Below, one piece after another: positions 3,626 to 25,238 of a stretch of 32,888 nt of DNA. Below the pieces are notes generated by a model that was not told the origin of the DNA, ran no database searches, and saw nothing but the letters and a program-made list of their open reading frames with translations. Every line of letters starts with the position of its first letter. The first letter of the stretch is position 1. Location: positions 1 through 32,888 of the IMG/VR virus record IMGVR_UViG_3300022602_000278; one strand, given 5' to 3'. Made by a program: the position numbers and the translations under genes. Source of the stretch: a virus.

Positions 3626-4921
3626 CTAGACCGGAATGTTAGATGCTGTTAAGTAAATAGTAACTTCAGTGAAGCCACGAGCAGGTACGAAGGTTAAGCT
3701 TAGACCGTTATACGCTCCAATTGCATAGTCACCTGGGTTCTGTGAAACATAAGTTACAAATGGAACCGCATTAACTGTTGCAGGAGATAAAATCAATCCA
3801 AAAGCAATACCGTTATTAACCAATGCTTGAGCTACTTTTTGCAATGTATTTACACCCGCTTGGTTGTAGTACAAAGGATTTGTAGGAGTATTGCTTCCGT
3901 TAATAATAGCATTTGCTAAAGCGATTTCTACGTTAATAGCTAACCAATCTACTGCGTACCAATAGTTAAATGGATTTAAGTCCATATAGGTACCCCAGAA
4001 GATGATGGTATTGCTGATACCGCCTTCTGCCCCTGTACCAATCCAGTTTACGCCCGCAGCTTTTAACTGAGTTTGTAAAACATTTGTTAGTACATAAGGT
4101 GTAACTCCATAAACGTAAGTAAATGACAAAGGATGTGCCAAATTGCTTGCGTTAGGGTTATAGCTTAATGTTGTCCAAAAGATAGCCGCTGCACTGAATT
4201 CAGTAACTGGTGCACTAGGGCTTTGAACAGTTGTAAATGCAGCTTTAAAGTTTTCCCAATGTGAGTACGTAGAAATAGTTGTAGTTACATAGAAATAAAC
4301 TTTAGCAGTTGGGCCTGAGAACGTATTAGCCATAGCCCAAGCTGTAGGCTCTGTATCCCATGTTGCAGGCAATAAATAGCTGTAGAACTTAACTGTTGGA
4401 TTAGCGATATAGCTAGTTAAAGCTGATACACCAACCGCAGGGCTTCCTACACCTAGTTCAAGAACATAAACTGCTTGGGTAGAACCTTGAGCAAAGAATG
4501 TTGTGGCCATAGCTGTTAGCTCTTGTACATCTTCAAGAGTATATTTACCTTGAACAGTTACTGAGCCTGGATTAGTAGCTAATGGATATGTGAATGTATT
4601 TGTGCCTGTAGAAGTCGCTAAGAATGTGCCGTTGTAGCCTGTTGGGGTTACACCTGCAATAATTACTTCAACGCTTTGACCAGAAGTGATGCCATGTGGT
4701 GCAGTTGTTGTAACTGTCACTACGCTTCCACTCCAAGTCATAGATGTAATAGCGGCTGATCCAGATAAAATACTCGCTAAATCGCTCATTTGTGTGAGCA
4801 ATTGTACTGACCCCGCTGCCAAAGTAGTGGCGCCTTGAGATATAAAGGCACCAGTTCTTTGTAGCTGAGACGGGGTAGGCGCTACTTGTTGGGTAACGCT
4901 TACATTAACAATATTTGGCAT
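3626..4921 (-). CDS. Contractile tail sheath protein (DUF3383-like) with inserted beta domain
   Basis: 431 residues. The start (MPNIVNVSVTQQVAPTPS, then RTGAFISQGATTL) and the end (ARGFTEVTIYLTASNIPV) match the style of DUF3383-type sheath proteins, and WIGTGAEGGISNTIIFWGTYMD lies in the C-terminal half. Between about residues 58 and 125 there is an insertion reading WSGSVVTVTTTAPHGITSG ... VTPTGYNGTFLATSTGTN ... FTYPLA, a small beta-sandwich module that recurs in unrelated phage structural proteins. The gene is followed at 10 bases by the tube gene. The sheath surrounds the tube and contracts at infection; the insertion probably sits on the outside. Confidence 0.8.
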   Translation of the reverse strand: MPNIVNVSVTQQVAPTPSQLQRTGAFISQGATTLAAGSVQLLTQMSDLASILSGSAAITSMTWSGSVVTVTTTAPHGITSGQSVEVIIAGVTPTGYNGTFLATSTGTNTFTYPLATNPGSVTVQGKYTLEDVQELTAMATTFFAQGSTQAVYVLELGVGSPAVGVSALTSYIANPTVKFYSYLLPATWDTEPTAWAMANTFSGPTAKVYFYVTTTISTYSHWENFKAAFTTVQSPSAPVTEFSAAAIFWTTLSYNPNASNLAHPLSFTYVYGVTPYVLTNVLQTQLKAAGVNWIGTGAEGGISNTIIFWGTYMDLNPFNYWYAVDWLAINVEIALANAIINGSNTPTNPLYYNQAGVNTLQKVAQALVNNGIAFGLILSPATVNAVPFVTYVSQNPGDYAIGAYNGLSLTFVPARGFTEVTIYLTASNIPV

Positions 4922-4944
4922 AATGCCCCCTGTCTAATAATCGA

Positions 4945-5262
4945 TTAAGCGTAGCTAACAGAAATTGTGCCGCCTGTTGGAGGCGTAACTACGATACCAA
5001 CTTGGCAAGGAAAATCGAATATATACGTGCCGATTGCTTCAGGGATAACTGCTACTGCGTTAGCTACACCTGTGCCAGATACAGTTGCGTGGTCATAAAT
5101 ACCACCGTTTGCTGAACCTGCAACGATTACGTTAACTGTACATACACGACCTTTTACTGGCTTTAATACTGTAGATGTAGTGATATCTAAAGCTGATTTA
5201 ATACCGCTACCTGAAATAACTGTTCCGGCGATAACTGCTGGTTGATTTTGTCCGACTGCCAT
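4945..5262 (-). CDS. Small beta-rich structural protein, 105 aa
   Basis: Unrecognised by name. It is a compact, Cys-poor, Gly/Val/Ala-rich beta protein (GRVCTVNVIVAGSANGGIYD, then PEAIGTYIFDFPCQVGIVV, ending GGTISVSYA). It sits between the neck/terminator gene and the sheath gene, transcribed with them. Similar small proteins with the GxIYD and VxPxxGxxxSVSY pattern occur beside head and tail genes of many phages and are thought to decorate virions. I infer a virion decoration role with low certainty. Confidence 0.65.
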   Translation of the reverse strand: MAVGQNQPAVIAGTVISGSGIKSALDITTSTVLKPVKGRVCTVNVIVAGSANGGIYDHATVSGTGVANAVAVIPEAIGTYIFDFPCQVGIVVTPPTGGTISVSYA

Positions 5263-5291
5263 GATTGGCTCCTTAAAGAGTGGGTTTGGGG

Positions 5292-6284
5292 TTAGGGTGC
5301 TTCTGTGATACTCATTACTGCTGATTCAATTAACTTTCTAGCAATGTCGTTAACTGTACTTTGATAATAGCTTACATCAAAAGTAATCGTCTTCTTCATT
5401 GCTATGATGCCGAATTCAGATTGAACTGATTTTTCATCCTGAATAACAGGCATATTAAGCAATCCAATATTATCGGTATCAATACTGTATTGAAGCACAT
5501 AATTGACGAAATTCAAAGCGTCGTGATTACGTTTTCCATATATAGTTATTTTAACTGAATCTTTTACCAATTGATTAGGGCTTGAATATCTATCTAGCAA
5601 TTGAAAATCTTGTAAAGCCGTAGTTTGAGCGGGGTCTATATCCACCGAAGCATAAGGTGGTGGGCTGTTAGGGGCCACCAAATATGAAGGGTACATAGGG
5701 AAAAATTGATTTAAAGTTAGCCAAATAGGTAGGCTATTGGAAACTACGGGCGTAATCGTATCAAAATCAGTCATGCTATTGATTAGCTGACTGTACATGA
5801 TTGAATACAGAGCGTCTCCACGGTAATGGTAGATATCCGCTTGCTTATAAAAACTTTCTCTACGACGGAAAGCAAACTTTATGTTGTTGTAGGTAGCTAC
5901 ATACATCATATTTGGGTTAATCAAATTAAAGTCTTGAATAGGCTCTAAGGCCGTAAACATTAAATGATTAAATGCTGTAGTTCTATCAACTAACTGTTGA
6001 ACGTCTGTCGTATGGTGTAAAGAGCCTTTAGCTTGGAAATGTCTTGCGGGTACAGGGTAATCCATTTTATCGTACTCGGATTGACCATATTGAGCCGCGT
6101 TATACAAAGCGGAATCAGACATTAAGCTAGAATTCACCCAAAATACGGATCCATCTACAGGCAGAATTAACTTCACATATAGAATAAAAGTTACTTCTTG
6201 GTTCATTGAAAGCGTATTAACACCTTCAGCGATACTAGCTCCTAAGGGCGTCTTAGCGCCTAGCGTTTCTTCTACTGTGCTCAT
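5292..6284 (-). CDS. Neck / tail-terminator-region structural protein, 330 aa
   Basis: The protein has no signal peptide. The last ~100 residues (DSVKITIYGKRNHDALNFV ... EKSVQSEFGIIAMKKTITF) look like the beta-alpha-beta core of phage tail-terminator or neck proteins of the LIC12616-like kind. The N-terminal 200 residues are an extra region with many aromatic residues (YKQADIYHYRGDALYSIMYS). It starts in an ATGA overlap with the 162-residue gene and precedes the sheath, consistent with capping the tail or joining head to tail. The exact role is an inference from order. Confidence 0.65.
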   Translation of the reverse strand: MSTVEETLGAKTPLGASIAEGVNTLSMNQEVTFILYVKLILPVDGSVFWVNSSLMSDSALYNAAQYGQSEYDKMDYPVPARHFQAKGSLHHTTDVQQLVDRTTAFNHLMFTALEPIQDFNLINPNMMYVATYNNIKFAFRRRESFYKQADIYHYRGDALYSIMYSQLINSMTDFDTITPVVSNSLPIWLTLNQFFPMYPSYLVAPNSPPPYASVDIDPAQTTALQDFQLLDRYSSPNQLVKDSVKITIYGKRNHDALNFVNYVLQYSIDTDNIGLLNMPVIQDEKSVQSEFGIIAMKKTITFDVSYYQSTVNDIARKLIESAVMSITEAP

Positions 6285-7263: not shown

Positions 7264-7767
7264 TTATTTTCTTCTGCTACCTTTTTTAAGAGGTGCTGAA
7301 CCTTCACGGGCCACTTGAATAGTTTGTTCAAACTTTTCACTTGAATCCGCTGCGTTCTTTTTCTCTTCTACTACTTCTACCTCTAAACCTGATTTTTGTT
7401 TCAAGCCCATTTCTTGAGCTTTAGTCGATAAAATCATGTCTGCGGCGGCGGCAGTGTTGTTTCTAGCTTCTTGAGCACGGTCAATAGCTTCTTGGTCACG
7501 TTGGCTCAAGCCTTGCTCAATAGCCTCTACGTTGATTGGCTTATCAAGTCTATAGCATTGACCACCGAAACCTTTTTTGACCTTGCTGGCTTCCATTAAA
7601 CCATAAATAGAATGCTGTTTAATGATTGAATCAACGTCTGCTTGACTAGCTTCAATCATCATTTGAGCACCTGCACGGATATGATGAGAGAACGGACGTG
7701 GGTTCTCAGGCAACATATAAGTGAAATGGAATTCTTGTTTACTTGCGTTTGCGATATACAGTTTCAT
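7264..7767 (-). CDS. Phage head-neck region protein, 167 aa
   Basis: Unnamed. The N-terminal 80 residues form a compact alpha/beta unit (KLYIANASKQEFHFTYMLPE, then RAGAQMMIEASQADVDSII, GGQCYRLDKPINVE). The remainder is a charged, helical tail ending in basic residues (LKKGSRRK). The pattern is common beside capsid genes of myophages but its role is not established. It is the first gene after the capsid terminator; the start has GGGAG upstream and a long hairpin leader sits before that, so it may be separately controlled. Confidence 0.65.
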   Translation of the reverse strand: MKLYIANASKQEFHFTYMLPENPRPFSHHIRAGAQMMIEASQADVDSIIKQHSIYGLMEASKVKKGFGGQCYRLDKPINVEAIEQGLSQRDQEAIDRAQEARNNTAAAADMILSTKAQEMGLKQKSGLEVEVVEEKKNAADSSEKFEQTIQVAREGSAPLKKGSRRK

Positions 7768-9595: not shown

Positions 9596-11539
9596 TTAGC
9601 GTTTGTTGTTAAGATGGAACTCTTTAGCTCTCAACGCAGGTACTTTGAATTGGTCTAACCAACCCATACCGCCTTTGAACTTAGTGATTGTGCGGCCAGC
9701 GCGATCTTTTTCATGGATCTCAATTTCTTGGTCAGCAGCAAACACGGCTGGAGACTTAGCAGCAGCTAGAGCATCAGCAAAAATTGCTTTCTCAGCGATT
9801 GCTAATAACGCAGCATCTTTAATAGAGGCCAAGTTAACATTTTTATAAGAGTCAGAATAAGCTTGCAATGAACGTAATTGACGTTTACGGTAAGCCATTA
9901 CGCTTTCACCGCTTAGTGGACGTGATGCAGATTTACCGAAAGCGGCCAATACTGAGTCAGCTTTAGCTTGTGCATCAGCATATTCAGCGGCTTCGTCGTC
10001 AGCTTTTTTAGCTTCTTCTTCATCGTCGTCATCTTTACGAGCGTCGTCATCATCAGGCTTCATTTCTCCGGCTTTACCTTCTTCTTTGCCTTCGTCAGAG
10101 CCTTTAGCATCTTTACGATGTTTCTTAGCGTCGTGTTTCATTTCTTCTTCTTCGTCGTCATCCTTACGGGCGTCGTCGTCGTCTTTTTTAGCTTTTTTAG
10201 CTTCTTCTTCATCGTCGTCTTTGCGCTTGTCAGCAGCAGTAACAAGTTTTTCAGCAGGCATATTCTTTTCCATGCTGTCCATACGAGTTGCCAAACCGCT
10301 TACCATTTGCATAAGAGCATCAAGTTTGTCGCCTGCGGCATCTGCCTTAGGCTCATTGGTTTTGTCTGTCATTTCAGATACCTCAGGGTTAGTTAATAAT
10401 ACTCCGGCAGGATCGCCACCTTTGTCCCACACCCCCTTAGATCCTCTCTCTTTCGTTACGATAGCGATATGATCTAAAAGGAATGGTACACCTTCAATCA
10501 AGAGTGGCTCACCATTCTCAGTTGTAAGTGTAGTGTTTCCAGCAGTATTGTCAAATACTACTGATGGGGATGTGCTAATACCTTCAGGCGATTCGCCCTC
10601 TTTGACGATTTGCTCAAAAGCTTTCTCGTCATAAATCTTCGCAATACCCCAAACTTCGTCACCTTTAATGTAAGGCAACATAACACTTCCGATAGCTCTG
10701 TCTTTGAATTCTTCTGTATTCAAAACAGCACTTTCAGGATGATCCATAATGACTGTTAGGCCATTACATCTCTGTAAAAATTCTTGATTCAAATAAAGCG
10801 ATGGGTCACGCCATACGTGCTCGCCAATACTTGAACGATAAGCCAAGCCTGTACCTGTGATGCGAATAGCTAATAAGTGCATATTGGCATATGGTTGTGG
10901 GCTTGGTAAATTGCCTTCAGACATCAGTTGAGCTACATCGTGTTCAGTTTTGCAACCTGCAATACGGAACGATAGCTCTAAACCTGGGTGAAGTGGAATT
11001 GGTGCATCATCAGGGCGACACCATACATAGCCTGTAGATTCATCGCATAGTTTCACGTGAAACTTCTCTACACCTTTAGCTAAGTAAGTTGCAAACTGAC
11101 CATCATCGTGAATCATCTCTAGAGGGCCTTCGTACTTCAAGCCTGTTTCTTCTAAAGCTTCACGGCGCGCGGCTTCTTCTAAAGTCTCGCCTTTTTCTTG
11201 ATGACCGCCTGGTAGACCAAACGTGCCTGGGAAATCTCCACCGTCGCCTCGACGCATCAATAGAGTTTCACCTTCAGGTGTTAAAAATAGAATCCCTGCT
11301 GCACGGCCTGCGGGGCCTGCATCTTTATCAATAGGGGCTTCATCATTTTTACCATTGCGAACCATTAGTTCATCGCAATCGTCGGTTTTTTCAGGGGTGC
11401 TTAAAACTGTAGCTTCTGCTGGCACTTCATCTTTTCCAATGAACTCTTTACCAACAGCTTGAGGCACTCCACCAAAGCCGCCCGGTGTGTGGGCTGCGGC
11501 TTGCATCAATCTTTCTTGAGCGGCACTTTTAGCTGGCAT
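9596..11539 (-). CDS. NUDIX hydrolase fused to DUF2213-type prohead protease/scaffold
   Basis: 647 residues in several parts. Residues 1-40 carry a phage N-terminal tag (AAQERLMQAAAHTPG ... VPQAVGKEF). Residues 75-210 are a NUDIX domain with an intact box: G112, E118, R126-E127, E130-E131 and G133, so hydrolysis of nucleoside-diphosphate-linked compounds is plausible. Residues 220-385 look like DUF2213 (YRSSIGEHVWRDPSLYL, TVIMDHPESAV, SPEGISTSPSVVF). Residues 430-550 are a run of D, E and K, like a scaffold. The C-terminal part ends VPALRAKEFHLNNKR. One open frame, with the cement gene 13 bases downstream. The protease role is inferred from position. Confidence 0.85.
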   Translation of the reverse strand: MPAKSAAQERLMQAAAHTPGGFGGVPQAVGKEFIGKDEVPAEATVLSTPEKTDDCDELMVRNGKNDEAPIDKDAGPAGRAAGILFLTPEGETLLMRRGDGGDFPGTFGLPGGHQEKGETLEEAARREALEETGLKYEGPLEMIHDDGQFATYLAKGVEKFHVKLCDESTGYVWCRPDDAPIPLHPGLELSFRIAGCKTEHDVAQLMSEGNLPSPQPYANMHLLAIRITGTGLAYRSSIGEHVWRDPSLYLNQEFLQRCNGLTVIMDHPESAVLNTEEFKDRAIGSVMLPYIKGDEVWGIAKIYDEKAFEQIVKEGESPEGISTSPSVVFDNTAGNTTLTTENGEPLLIEGVPFLLDHIAIVTKERGSKGVWDKGGDPAGVLLTNPEVSEMTDKTNEPKADAAGDKLDALMQMVSGLATRMDSMEKNMPAEKLVTAADKRKDDDEEEAKKAKKDDDDARKDDDEEEEMKHDAKKHRKDAKGSDEGKEEGKAGEMKPDDDDARKDDDDEEEAKKADDEAAEYADAQAKADSVLAAFGKSASRPLSGESVMAYRKRQLRSLQAYSDSYKNVNLASIKDAALLAIAEKAIFADALAAAKSPAVFAADQEIEIHEKDRAGRTITKFKGGMGWLDQFKVPALRAKEFHLNNKR

Positions 11540-13801: not shown

Positions 13802-15091
13802 TCAGAACCCAAGTTTATTTCCTAGGGCGATAGCTAATCCATAAACCACACAATCGAGCAAGTCGTCGGCTCGTTTGTTAGCGTCTTTATCACCGATTCT
13901 AAAGTTGGATAGCTGAGTGAGCAAGTGATTTCTTGTGGAGCCTTTAATGCTAATCATTTTGTCGTAGGCCCAACCACTAATTTTCATTTTTTCTTGATGA
14001 AAATAGCCTGACACGCTAATTGCACGTTCATCTTTACCCGCCTGGCACAGTTTGCTATCAATCTCGTGCACGTTCCACCCTCTATTTCGCCCCTGTTGTA
14101 GCAAAATAGAGCCTGCCGCGGTGTCTTCGATAAAAGTTCCGACTACTCCGTGGCGTGCTTTTGTCAATTTAGCCAACTCTTCGAGCCTTGAAAACACGCT
14201 CGGTATCCACTTTTCTAGCATAGCACCGTCAATATTGACCGCATCGTAGTCCAAAATAGTGAGCGGAATGCCTAAATGTTCGTTGATAGCGAAGTACACC
14301 ACGGCTGTTGAGTCATGTTCTTTACCACCTTTTACTGCACAGTCCATCACAGCGAACACGCCGTCGCATCTGTTAGGGTACTCAATCGGCAATTGATTGA
14401 CTAACATCTTGTCCACGGAGAAGAACGCTACCCCTGACCAATCGACGAACTCAGCTAAATACTCTTGCCTAAACACCATTGGGTGATTGCGTACTCGTTC
14501 ACGCTCTAACTCTTCAGGCGGTACGTAAGGATTGGTTGATGTCGGTGCATGGAAAGAGTTGAACCCCATAGAGTCTTCGTTACACGCAGCATAGAAAAAA
14601 TTATCGGGGTCCACACCGTTAGGTGTCGAAAACACCCAGGCAATACCTTTGGTAGTTAGCATCGTTGGCTTGATAGACTTGAACCAAATTTCTTCTTTCA
14701 TCTGCGGTGATTTAGTAAACCCCGCTTCATCGATTAGCACTAAGTTATATTCGCGGCCACGGCCTGCCAACTCGTTGTCGTTCAATGTCCAAAAGTCAAC
14801 TTTACCGCCATTGATTAATTTGATTGTTCCGTCATTTCTGTTTGCGGTTTTTACCGCAGGGTCCAACATATCTCGTAAATGATCCCACGGTTCGGCTAAC
14901 TGTTTGTGCTCAGGAGCAAAAATGCCCACAGACATTTTATTGGTAGCTCCATATCCAGCTAACCATTCTAGAAAACGAGTCTTACCCCAACGTCGCCCGC
15001 ATCGGGTGACATTTAGTCGTTTTTGTTGTAAAAACAGAGCTTCTTGCCCTGAGTGTAAAACTGGTAATGTGACTCTTCTATCGCTAGTCAT
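13802..15091 (-). CDS. terL: Terminase large subunit (ATPase and nuclease)
   Basis: 429 residues. Walker A CGRRWGKT at 31-38 and Walker B LVLIDEAG with the DE at 121-122 define the packaging ATPase; the coupling motif follows in FSTPNG. The C-terminal nuclease has acidic residues in VMDCAVKGG (D250), in IEDTAAG (about 322-323) and in RADDLLDCV near residue 415. It follows a small subunit-like gene at 11 bases and precedes the portal. It cuts the concatemer and drives DNA into the prohead. Length agrees with the family. Confidence 0.92.
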   Translation of the reverse strand: MTSDRRVTLPVLHSGQEALFLQQKRLNVTRCGRRWGKTRFLEWLAGYGATNKMSVGIFAPEHKQLAEPWDHLRDMLDPAVKTANRNDGTIKLINGGKVDFWTLNDNELAGRGREYNLVLIDEAGFTKSPQMKEEIWFKSIKPTMLTTKGIAWVFSTPNGVDPDNFFYAACNEDSMGFNSFHAPTSTNPYVPPEELERERVRNHPMVFRQEYLAEFVDWSGVAFFSVDKMLVNQLPIEYPNRCDGVFAVMDCAVKGGKEHDSTAVVYFAINEHLGIPLTILDYDAVNIDGAMLEKWIPSVFSRLEELAKLTKARHGVVGTFIEDTAAGSILLQQGRNRGWNVHEIDSKLCQAGKDERAISVSGYFHQEKMKISGWAYDKMISIKGSTRNHLLTQLSNFRIGDKDANKRADDLLDCVVYGLAIALGNKLGF

Positions 15092-15102: not shown

Positions 15103-15507
15103 TTATTCATCAATCTTTGGTATAGGTAGCGTATTTTCAACAATAATGCGAATATCGCTATTTGCATCACTATCTGGTTTAGCAGGTTTCCATCCGTGTA
15201 TATGCGTCAAAGCAAATGCTGCCGCTTTTGTTTCACCGTTTAAACCATTGCGAATAACTGCGCCGCTCAATCTAGATTCGCATTCTGCTCGTCCAGTATT
15301 TATGGCTAGGTCAATTCTTGGGTCAAATTCTTTTAAAGAAGCAAATGTAGTGGGTAAAAGTCCTAGCACTACAGCAATGGATTCTTCTTTTAGACCTCTA
15401 AAAGCCGCGTCATATATTTTTTTTAGCTCTAATTCTGTGGCTTCGATTTTATTTACTTTGTAATCAAGGGAAACAATATCGCATGAAGGATTAAACATTT
15501 CATCCAT
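15103..15507 (-). CDS. terS: Probable terminase small subunit
   Basis: 134 residues. The middle helix-turn-helix-like part (GLKEESIAVVLGLLPTTFA) and the segment LAINTGRAECESRLSGAVI followed by NGETKAAAFALTHIHGWKP are typical of small terminase subunits that bind the packaging site. It is the first gene of the leftward virion operon and immediately precedes terL. Ribosome binding site AGGAG lies seven bases before ATG. The promoter region upstream carries a 19-base GTAAG palindrome. Confidence 0.8.
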   Translation of the reverse strand: MDEMFNPSCDIVSLDYKVNKIEATELELKKIYDAAFRGLKEESIAVVLGLLPTTFASLKEFDPRIDLAINTGRAECESRLSGAVIRNGLNGETKAAAFALTHIHGWKPAKPDSDANSDIRIIVENTLPIPKIDE

Positions 15508-15607: not shown

Positions 15608-15872
15608 AGTTGTATTTTTTAAAAAATTTTTTTCAGGATTTGTAAAACTATTTTTTGCATATTGCTAGTAACTAAAAGCCCCCTGATGGTGTGGGTAGAA
15701 AGTAATGACCCCCTTTTTCGATTTTGATAGGCAAAAAAACCCCTATAGCTGAAACGCCAGGCAGAATAAGGCTTGCAAGCCGATAAGCCCTGAAGCCCTT
15801 ATATAATGGGGCTTTTGGGCTAGGCTGCATTCAGATAAAAAGTTAAGGCGGGAAAAGTTAAGGCTAAGGCCT

Positions 15873-15900
15873 GATTCACATAACGCGCGTTATGTTAAAG
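15873..15900 (+). other. dif-like XerC/XerD recombination site
   Basis: Left arm GATTCACATAA, six-base centre CGCGCG, right arm TTATGTTAAAG. Against the E. coli dif site the right (XerD) arm matches 10 of 11; the left (XerC) arm matches 8 of 11, and 10 of 11 when read against a proteobacterial consensus as I remember it (RNTKCGCATAA). The centre differs from chromosomal dif, as in plasmid-borne sites. The inner 18 bases are also a perfect palindrome. A 12-base direct repeat just upstream could be accessory. Match found by eye. Confidence 0.6.
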
Positions 15901-16385
15901 AAGAATGAGGCTATTATGGGTCAAATTGTCATAGATTCCATGTAGCACTTAGCAAAATAGAATATAGCATTTAACGGAAAATTTAAAACCAAAGGGGGGC
16001 GAGATAAAAAATTACCTCATACCCTCAGCACTTAAAAAACTATCATTTAGCACACCTCAAAATGCACTCATACATAGCCAAAAAATGAAGGGCAACGCTA
16101 AAAATTGTCAATTGTCAAATTGTCATACCCTAAAAACTTAGCCCGTGAAATTATGCGTATTTTTACATATTCACTTTTAGAAAATCTAAATAATAAATAA
16201 AAATGACAATATAACCCAAAAGCCCCGAATCCCGTATCCTATATGGCCTTTTCGATAGGTCATAACCCATCACCCATTTTTGACAATTCGCCCATACTTT
16301 AACCCATAACATAGCCCGATTGTCAAATAGTCATAACCCCCTATTCGCTAGCTAAAAATAAAAAGCAAAAACCGAAATTTAAAGG

Positions 16386-20724: not shown

Positions 20725-21147
20725 CTAAGCGCTCGGCTTCTTTGGCCTACCGCCTAGTTTACCATTAGCTCTCGATGCTTCTTGTTTAGCTAATGATGTT
20801 GAACTGCCGCCTATCTTACCACTGTTAGCTAAATTATCGTAGCGTTCTTTACGGATATCTTCAGTCCATTTCTTTCTGTATGCACTACCTTTGTATATAC
20901 ATTGGTTAACAAGCGGATGCCCCATGTCTTTAAAACAATCGATTAATAGCTGTTCATGTGACGATGCCTCTTCATCAGTCATCCATTGAGCTACTTCTTC
21001 GGCAAACCATTGTCTATCTTTAATGGCCTCATGCCAGGCTTTATTTCTGCCACGCTGACTATTCATACGGCTTTTACGAACTGCCATACCAACATAGAAC
21101 ACCTTGCCCGTATCCATAAATCGATGAATGTATGTGTAGTAGCTCAT
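20725..21147 (-). CDS. GIY-YIG family homing-type endonuclease
   Basis: 140 residues. GIY-YIG elements: YTYIH (4-8), FYVGMAV (17-23), a run of Arg (R24, R27, R32) and HEQLLIDCF with Glu near 65. The C-terminal 40 residues carry a basic, Gly-rich module (KIGGSSTS, then NGKLGGRPKK) that may bind DNA. ATG at 21147 has AGTGAGAA upstream. It follows the 52-residue gene on the same strand, and the module recurs in the next gene. A free-standing mobile endonuclease or a phage defence against competing phages are both possible. Confidence 0.85.
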   Translation of the reverse strand: MSYYTYIHRFMDTGKVFYVGMAVRKSRMNSQRGRNKAWHEAIKDRQWFAEEVAQWMTDEEASSHEQLLIDCFKDMGHPLVNQCIYKGSAYRKKWTEDIRKERYDNLANSGKIGGSSTSLAKQEASRANGKLGGRPKKPSA

Positions 21148-24716: not shown

Positions 24717-25238
24717 TTATTCTTGTACGTGCTTCCAAACTTTTCTTTTTTTGATAGCACAGATATGCGCGGAAGTAACATCATACTCCGATGCTAAATC
24801 TTTATTTGGCTTTTTACTGCGTAATATCTTAACAACATCTTTTTCCTTTATTTTTGCCATAGGATGTGTATCACCTTTAAGCCTATGTCCATGCTTTTCT
24901 GTATCTAAATGATTTTCCGCAGGTGTTCCATAACGCAAATTAGTATAGTGGTTATTAGCTTTGTTACCGTCGTTATGCAATACATGAAGGCCAATAGGGC
25001 ATTCCCCTAAAAAAGCCCTTGCCACTAATCTATGAATGCTGATTTGAGGTCTATGAACTCCATTAGTTAAAGTTACGCACATATATCCGTTTTGTTTACG
25101 TACTAAGGATAAGATACGTCCCTTACGTATAGCTGTCTTATTGTTTTTAGCCCCTACTACCATATCTTTAGACTTGACATGGCCGTATTCACTGATTGAA
25201 TATCTTTTTTCCCATCCAGGTATATCAACCCATTTCAT
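24717..25238 (-). CDS. HNH homing endonuclease with NUMOD4 domain
   Basis: 173 residues. NUMOD4-like start MKWVDIPGWEKRYSISEYGH followed by VKSKD. The HNH fold has HRLVARAFLGE (70-80), VLHNDGNKANNHYTNLRYG (about 88-105) and ENHLDTEKHG. A C-terminal helix-turn-helix-like part (KEKDVVKILRSKKPNKDLAS, then VTSAHICAIKKRKVW) probably gives site recognition. ATG overlaps the polymerase stop (ATGA), and a terminator follows, a common layout for a free-standing homing gene inserted between replication genes. It may cut the same intergenic site in related phages. Confidence 0.9.
   Translation of the reverse strand: MKWVDIPGWEKRYSISEYGHVKSKDMVVGAKNNKTAIRKGRILSLVRKQNGYMCVTLTNGVHRPQISIHRLVARAFLGECPIGLHVLHNDGNKANNHYTNLRYGTPAENHLDTEKHGHRLKGDTHPMAKIKEKDVVKILRSKKPNKDLASEYDVTSAHICAIKKRKVWKHVQE

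Follow-up and report, generated by a model that had tools for sequence, protein, structure and literature searches.

A dif-like XerC/XerD site upstream of the terminase genes in a family of tailed phages, with a possible role in recombination between phage copies

The DNA analyzed here (the window) is a complete IMG/VR record of 32,888 bp (IMGVR_UViG_3300022602_000278) that carries no terminal repeat. Genes for terminase, portal, capsid, sheath, PolA, primase, exonuclease and an SNF2 helicase were identified, and the window looks like a fragment of a virulent-looking myovirus. A divergent non-coding stretch of ~900 bp separates terS from the rightward early genes and holds a dif-like site together with two conserved boxes (Table 1). 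The original prediction gave the sequence and coordinates of the arms and the CGCGCG centre exactly; its placement in a "phage control region" was a loose description of this non-coding stretch. The box on the terS side may serve as a late promoter, a leader or a signal for packaging, and it was also kept in two family loci (L003 and L004) where no site was found. In many relatives, a box equivalent to the one on the other side lies 33 to 45 bp after the start of the site and may be an accessory or promoter element. The sequence GTCAAATTGTCATA occurs three times in the non-coding region (15920-15933, 16114-16127 and, with one change, 16322-16335), and the first copy is the conserved box a short way to the right of the Xer site.

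Table 1. Features of the window at and around the dif-like site
Feature	Coordinates	Strand	Basis or remark
Terminase large subunit gene (terL), next gene after terS, same direction	13802..15091	-	phrog_2, E value 4.7e-34
Terminase small subunit gene (terS), reading away from the site	15103..15507	-	phrog_309, E value 1.2e-4
Non-coding box CCCCCTTTTTCGATTTTGATAGGCAAAAAAA, 31 nt, between terS and the site	15709..15739	+	Equivalent place in relatives
dif-like XerC/XerD site, 28 bp	15873..15900	+	Sequence; kept in place in 43 family loci
XerC-type arm GATTCACATAA	15873..15883	+	Core differs at 1 position from the TTCGCATAA type; whole arm has 3 mismatches to E. coli
Palindromic centre CGCGCG, unlike chromosomal dif centres	15884..15889	+	Sequence
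XerD-type arm TTATGTTAAAG	15890..15900	+	10/11 to TTATGTTAAAT
Box GGGTCAAATTGTCA, 17 bp right of the site	15918..15931	+	Equivalent box in many relatives

Among the early genes scanned, one matches TreK, named after a terminal-repeat protein of a Staphylococcus phage. In the window, HNH/homing endonuclease genes were identified at 20725-21147 and 24717-25238, and related copies at several other places in a relative (G005) suggest that they have spread. A parS-like palindrome, AGTTTCACGTGAAACT, lies at 11049-11064 inside the 9596-11539 gene and is not conserved in relatives. A parS reading of such palindromes was rejected: the clade-specific TGTTTCATGTGAAACA is followed by a run of T and looks like a terminator hairpin.

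With two 11-bp arms around a 6-bp centre (GATTCACATAA-CGCGCG-TTATGTTAAAG), the site has the dif-type layout. It is present in a single copy in the window and contains the window's longest perfect palindrome, 18 bp (ACATAACGCGCGTTATGT). Against the E. coli arms it shows 4 mismatches over 22 positions (3 in the XerC arm and 1 in the XerD arm), compared with 6 for the runner-up place in the window. Against a panel of dif arms of the beta/gammaproteobacterial type, the site has 2 mismatches over 20 scored positions, a level reached by none of 200 Markov shuffles of the window. The arms fit the TTCGCATAA-N6-TTATGTTAAAT type found as dif in many sampled proteobacterial chromosomes, apart from two changes, the first in the XerC core and the second at the XerD arm's outer end, and they differ from the Polynucleobacter-type arms of the window's relatives. 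The single change that had been claimed for the XerD arm was confirmed, and the one claimed for the XerC arm relative to proteobacterial variants holds for the core of the TTCGCATAA type but becomes three against E. coli. Nearly all sampled chromosomal dif centres start with T and end with A. No match was returned by an exact search for CATAACGCGCGTTATGTTAAA in IMG/VR, by BLASTN of the site region against cultured phages or by comparison with Rfam. Judged by its sequence, the window site is a genuine dif-type Xer site, and very probably a functional XerCD target.

To the 73 loci from a TerL search of IMG/VR were added the window and one locus (L148) from the arm-pattern scan. A dif-like site was found at the equivalent place, 660 to 837 bp upstream of the terL start, in 43 family loci (window included) that represent 23 distinct contexts. 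Across the 21 contexts with a 6-bp centre, mean majority identity was 0.91 and 0.93 in the XerC and XerD arms, 0.60 in the centre, and 0.46 and 0.64 in the flanks. Conserved arms around a variable centre are the pattern that would be expected of a recombinase site partnered by its own copy. As evidence against an Xer site, the original prediction had named a palindrome kept in relatives whose arms had changed; the relatives show the opposite, arms being kept while the centre varies. Typical family sites are CTTGCGTATAA-CCGGTA-TTATGTCAAAT and GTTGCGTATAA-CGTACG-TTATGTCAAAT, and centre length is 6 bp throughout the family apart from one lineage with 7 bp. Nineteen of the 20 records tested had one good site each (≤1 mismatch), and the twentieth has a 7-bp centre, outside the reach of the search pattern.

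No recognizable site was identified in 20 family loci with at least 1 kb of upstream sequence. Among these is L004, with a TerL 87% identical, in which the boxes on both sides are conserved and the site is absent; because of these loci, the site must be dispensable or host-dependent. An apparently degraded site, CGTTTGCATATATCCGGTGTTATATCAAAT, lies ~770 bp upstream of TerL in L058 and is possibly a natural arm mutant. Cultured TerL relatives of the window phage (Yersinia 29.18, Klebsiella Chronis, Pantoea PdC23, Rac-SA53, Shewanella QDWS and pPE4) have different early regions and no equivalent site. Contig ends cluster 500 to 970 bp upstream of terL, with 17 in that 600-bp bin compared with 4 to 7 in the following bins; these may mark true ends of the molecule, or points in a variable stretch at which assembly broke off.

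The commonest arms of the family, TTGCGTATAA and TTATGTCAAA, are identical at 20 of 20 positions to the chromosomal dif arms of Polynucleobacter. Among 399 Burkholderiales genomes these arms occurred without mismatch in four, three of them from this genus. Within Polynucleobacter they were matched in 130 of 151 genomes, nearly always once, and about half-way round closed chromosomes, as expected of dif. Identity of the genus was supported by the PnecC-diagnostic 16S sequence (PMC5018217), present in 7 of 11 genomes inside and 0 of 5 outside. All six Polynucleobacter genomes inspected encode two full-length Xer recombinases, one above the XerD cut-off. The arm match points to Polynucleobacter as the probable host of the relatives.

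The centre of the Polynucleobacter dif is, as a rule, TCATTA. Family centres (CCGGTA, CGTACG, CTGGTG, CCGGTG, CCGCTA, GGTAGA, GCGGTA, CTGGCG and TTAGCGA) all differ from it at three or more positions and share with it no 3-nt block adjacent to either arm, a comparison that covers the window's relatives. Set beside the host dif as had originally been proposed, the relatives therefore agree in the arms and in no case in the centre.

Sites of this kind are not confined to the window's family. An IMG/VR scan with the Polynucleobacter arms gave 33 stretches, most from the family itself. L167 has an unrelated TerL, the same arms, the centre CAGGGA and a site just upstream of terS; L177 has its site placed likewise, and L168 and L169, read in outline, are further carriers outside the family. 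The phage-like contig L151 also came from the scan with the Polynucleobacter arms. Two commoner dif arm types returned at least 120 stretches each, and a reversed control of the first of these patterns gave 1 match against those at least 120. Using five seeds to recognize TerL and clustering at 50% identity to reduce redundancy, the site lay upstream of TerL in 60 of 60 loci with both site and TerL among the matches listed (18 TerL clusters), at a median distance of 800 bp; upstream placement would be expected in 39% at random. Neither the orientation of the site nor its distance is fixed across phage groups. In L247 it falls between terS and terL and is therefore inside the phage, not at a prophage end. 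The parts read of cultured phages reached through other TerLs, namely HTVC023P, HTVC027P, DSL-LC04, Proteus RS51pmB, Stenotrophomonas B2 and MEP301 contain no site, yet HTVC023P and MEP301 are close relatives of other site-bearing phages. No description of a dif-like site next to a tailed-phage terminase was found in the open-licence literature.

Host Xer recombinases are already known to be used by integrating filamentous, micro- and tectivirus-like phages. The main rival account of the site is an IMEX-type use, in which XerCD would insert the phage at the host dif, and lysogeny would need no integrase of the phage's own. Such insertion is known or suspected for filamentous phages, gokushoviruses and NO16-type phages (PMC5357621, PMC7062461, PMC9966536). 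Integration looks real for L151 (region 4099-5664), a small phage-like Polynucleobacter contig unrelated to the family, which passes into the host chromosome exactly at dif, with the host centre TCATTA, and is likely a Xer-integrated element; it is possible for tailed-phage contigs such as L214 and L292, whose sites have the chromosomal centre TGTATA. The claim that no integrase is present was upheld among the 20 larger ORFs of the window scanned, and PF00589 tyrosine integrases were likewise absent from 13 family records, five of them 49.6 to 52 kb, and from 14 unrelated site-bearing records. The proposal that this absence reflects integration at the chromosomal dif fared worse. Family centres have no host homology beside either arm; such homology is described for the attP of VGJ-phi (XerC side) and of TLC-phi (centre) (PMC5357621). 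In 186 Polynucleobacter genomes there was no clear integrated copy at dif, and the family capsid protein was absent from 185, the lone match being 42% identical and in a 3.4-Mb assembly; a TerL scan of the genome collection gave no close family prophage, and no repressor or partition gene was found among the early genes scanned. For the window's family, integration at dif is unsupported and we regard it as unlikely.

What does stand is that these phages, in which no integrase was detected, carry an XerC/XerD site of dif type whose centre is non-chromosomal and pdif- or psi-like. We favor, at a probability of roughly 0.55, its use as a host-XerCD site for recombination between phage copies, leading to circularization or multimer resolution, because the arms follow the host and the centres do not. 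Host XerC and XerD would each occupy one of the two arms, which follow the host dif in sequence, and would recombine two phage copies with each other. The product could be a circular genome formed from terminally redundant virion DNA with a site at both ends, or monomers released from multimers; resolution of multimers by host XerCD, as the original prediction suggested, is plausible. The site lies where the terminase operon begins, close to the likely start of packaging, and could thereby be included in the terminal redundancy that the first headful carries, as happens with loxP near pac in phage P1. Its private centre would let phage sites recombine mutually and not with the chromosome. Binding, catalysis, circularization or resolution and the packaging link are all deduced from comparative evidence, namely the form of the site, the host-matched arms of relatives, the conserved place, the diverged centre and the lack of detected integrase or lysogens. 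XerCD requires an activator, either FtsK or, at plasmid sites, PepA with ArgR or ArcA (PMC5357621), and none was identified on the phage. No circle, dimer or other product of recombination was observed.

Several known systems share parts of this arrangement. The E. coli-type chromosomal dif has the same 11-6-11 layout with XerC and XerD arms, and the relatives' arms are identical to the dif of Polynucleobacter; the phage site differs in adjoining terS and in its non-chromosomal centre. The plasmid sites cer (ColE1) and psi (pSC101) combine host XerCD arms with a private centre (PMC5357621) on extrachromosomal DNA that has no recombinase of its own. The present sites are on tailed phages, and where the plasmids have ~180 bp of accessory sequence for PepA with ArgR or ArcA, the phage site has a conserved box next to it. 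The IMEX attP of CTX-phi, VGJ-phi, TLC-phi, gokushoviruses and NO16 is likewise a dif-like phage site used by host XerCD; those phages integrate at dif, whereas here the centre is mismatched, no lysogens were found and the virion is tailed. In phage P1, also tailed, loxP lies near pac. The present site, like loxP, is a single target for a tyrosine recombinase; it lies upstream of terL, near the packaging genes, and its proposed role is circularization or monomer upkeep. P1 encodes Cre, whereas no PF00589 protein was found in the 27 family or site-bearing records. The present phage looks virulent and would have to rely on a recombinase supplied by its host. Extending the comparison, many unrelated integrase-less proteobacterial tailed phages might use host XerC/XerD as a stand-in for Cre, with a single terminase-operon site of host-matched arms and private centre that circularizes or monomerizes their DNA and avoids the chromosome; we put this forward tentatively, at somewhat less than even odds.

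Three further accounts carry less weight than integration. Like the pdif modules of Acinetobacter (PMC10057898), Xer sites could let co-infecting phages fuse or swap their structural and early halves. The site does lie where conserved late genes give way to early genes of high variability, neither G001 nor G005 has counterparts of the small rightward genes adjoining it in the window, and pdif sites too combine several centres with shared arm types. Such exchange is nonetheless improbable: pdif sites flank plasmid modules in numbers, whereas with one site per phage genome a second crossover would be needed, and the differing centres among family members would be a hindrance. We consider it about equally improbable that the phage binds XerC/XerD without recombination, titrating them or using them for transcription or DNA marking. 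The arms, which serve binding, are more constrained than the centre, which serves strand exchange, and the site sits between divergent operons, but a single copy would be a poor sponge, the centre spacing of 6 bp (7 in one lineage) is kept, and orientation and distance vary across phage groups. Least credible, and very improbable, is a merely coincidental resemblance to dif in a palindrome that acts as an operator, a terminator or a signal for packaging. The perfect 18-bp palindrome of the window copy would suit this account, and many phages have their packaging signals close to terS. Against this, both arms of relatives match the host genus dif at 20 of 20 positions, the arms are asymmetric, the centres often break the palindrome, and the site recurs in unrelated phages with other dif arm types, far above the reversed-pattern control.

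If recombination between phage copies is correct, Xer would have a new role in phage genome handling, exerted through a recurrent, non-integrating site near the terminase genes of tailed phages, and xerC and xerD would be host factors for virulent phages. The arms would also provide a short DNA signature to help host prediction of uncultivated phages, here to Polynucleobacter.

Small serine recombinases were seen in two records. One is near the dif boundary of L151, and the other is a small serine resolvase in Methylophilales phage MEP301 (L437, 935-1624), whose TerL is related to site-bearing marine contigs. A rule by which a phage has either a host Xer site or its own resolvase was considered and rejected, with a serine recombinase in these two and in 0 of 38 other records with or without the site. 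In the P2-like phages L174 (782-806) and L176 (12704-12728), a dif-like ACTTCACATAA-CGCCCA-TTATGTTAAAT lies past the portal gene, on the side presumed to contain cos. L344 carries two dif-like sites, at 7601 and 7707 (106 bp apart), with centres TGCATA and AAGTTA, an arrangement reminiscent of the paired attP sites of CTX-type phages.
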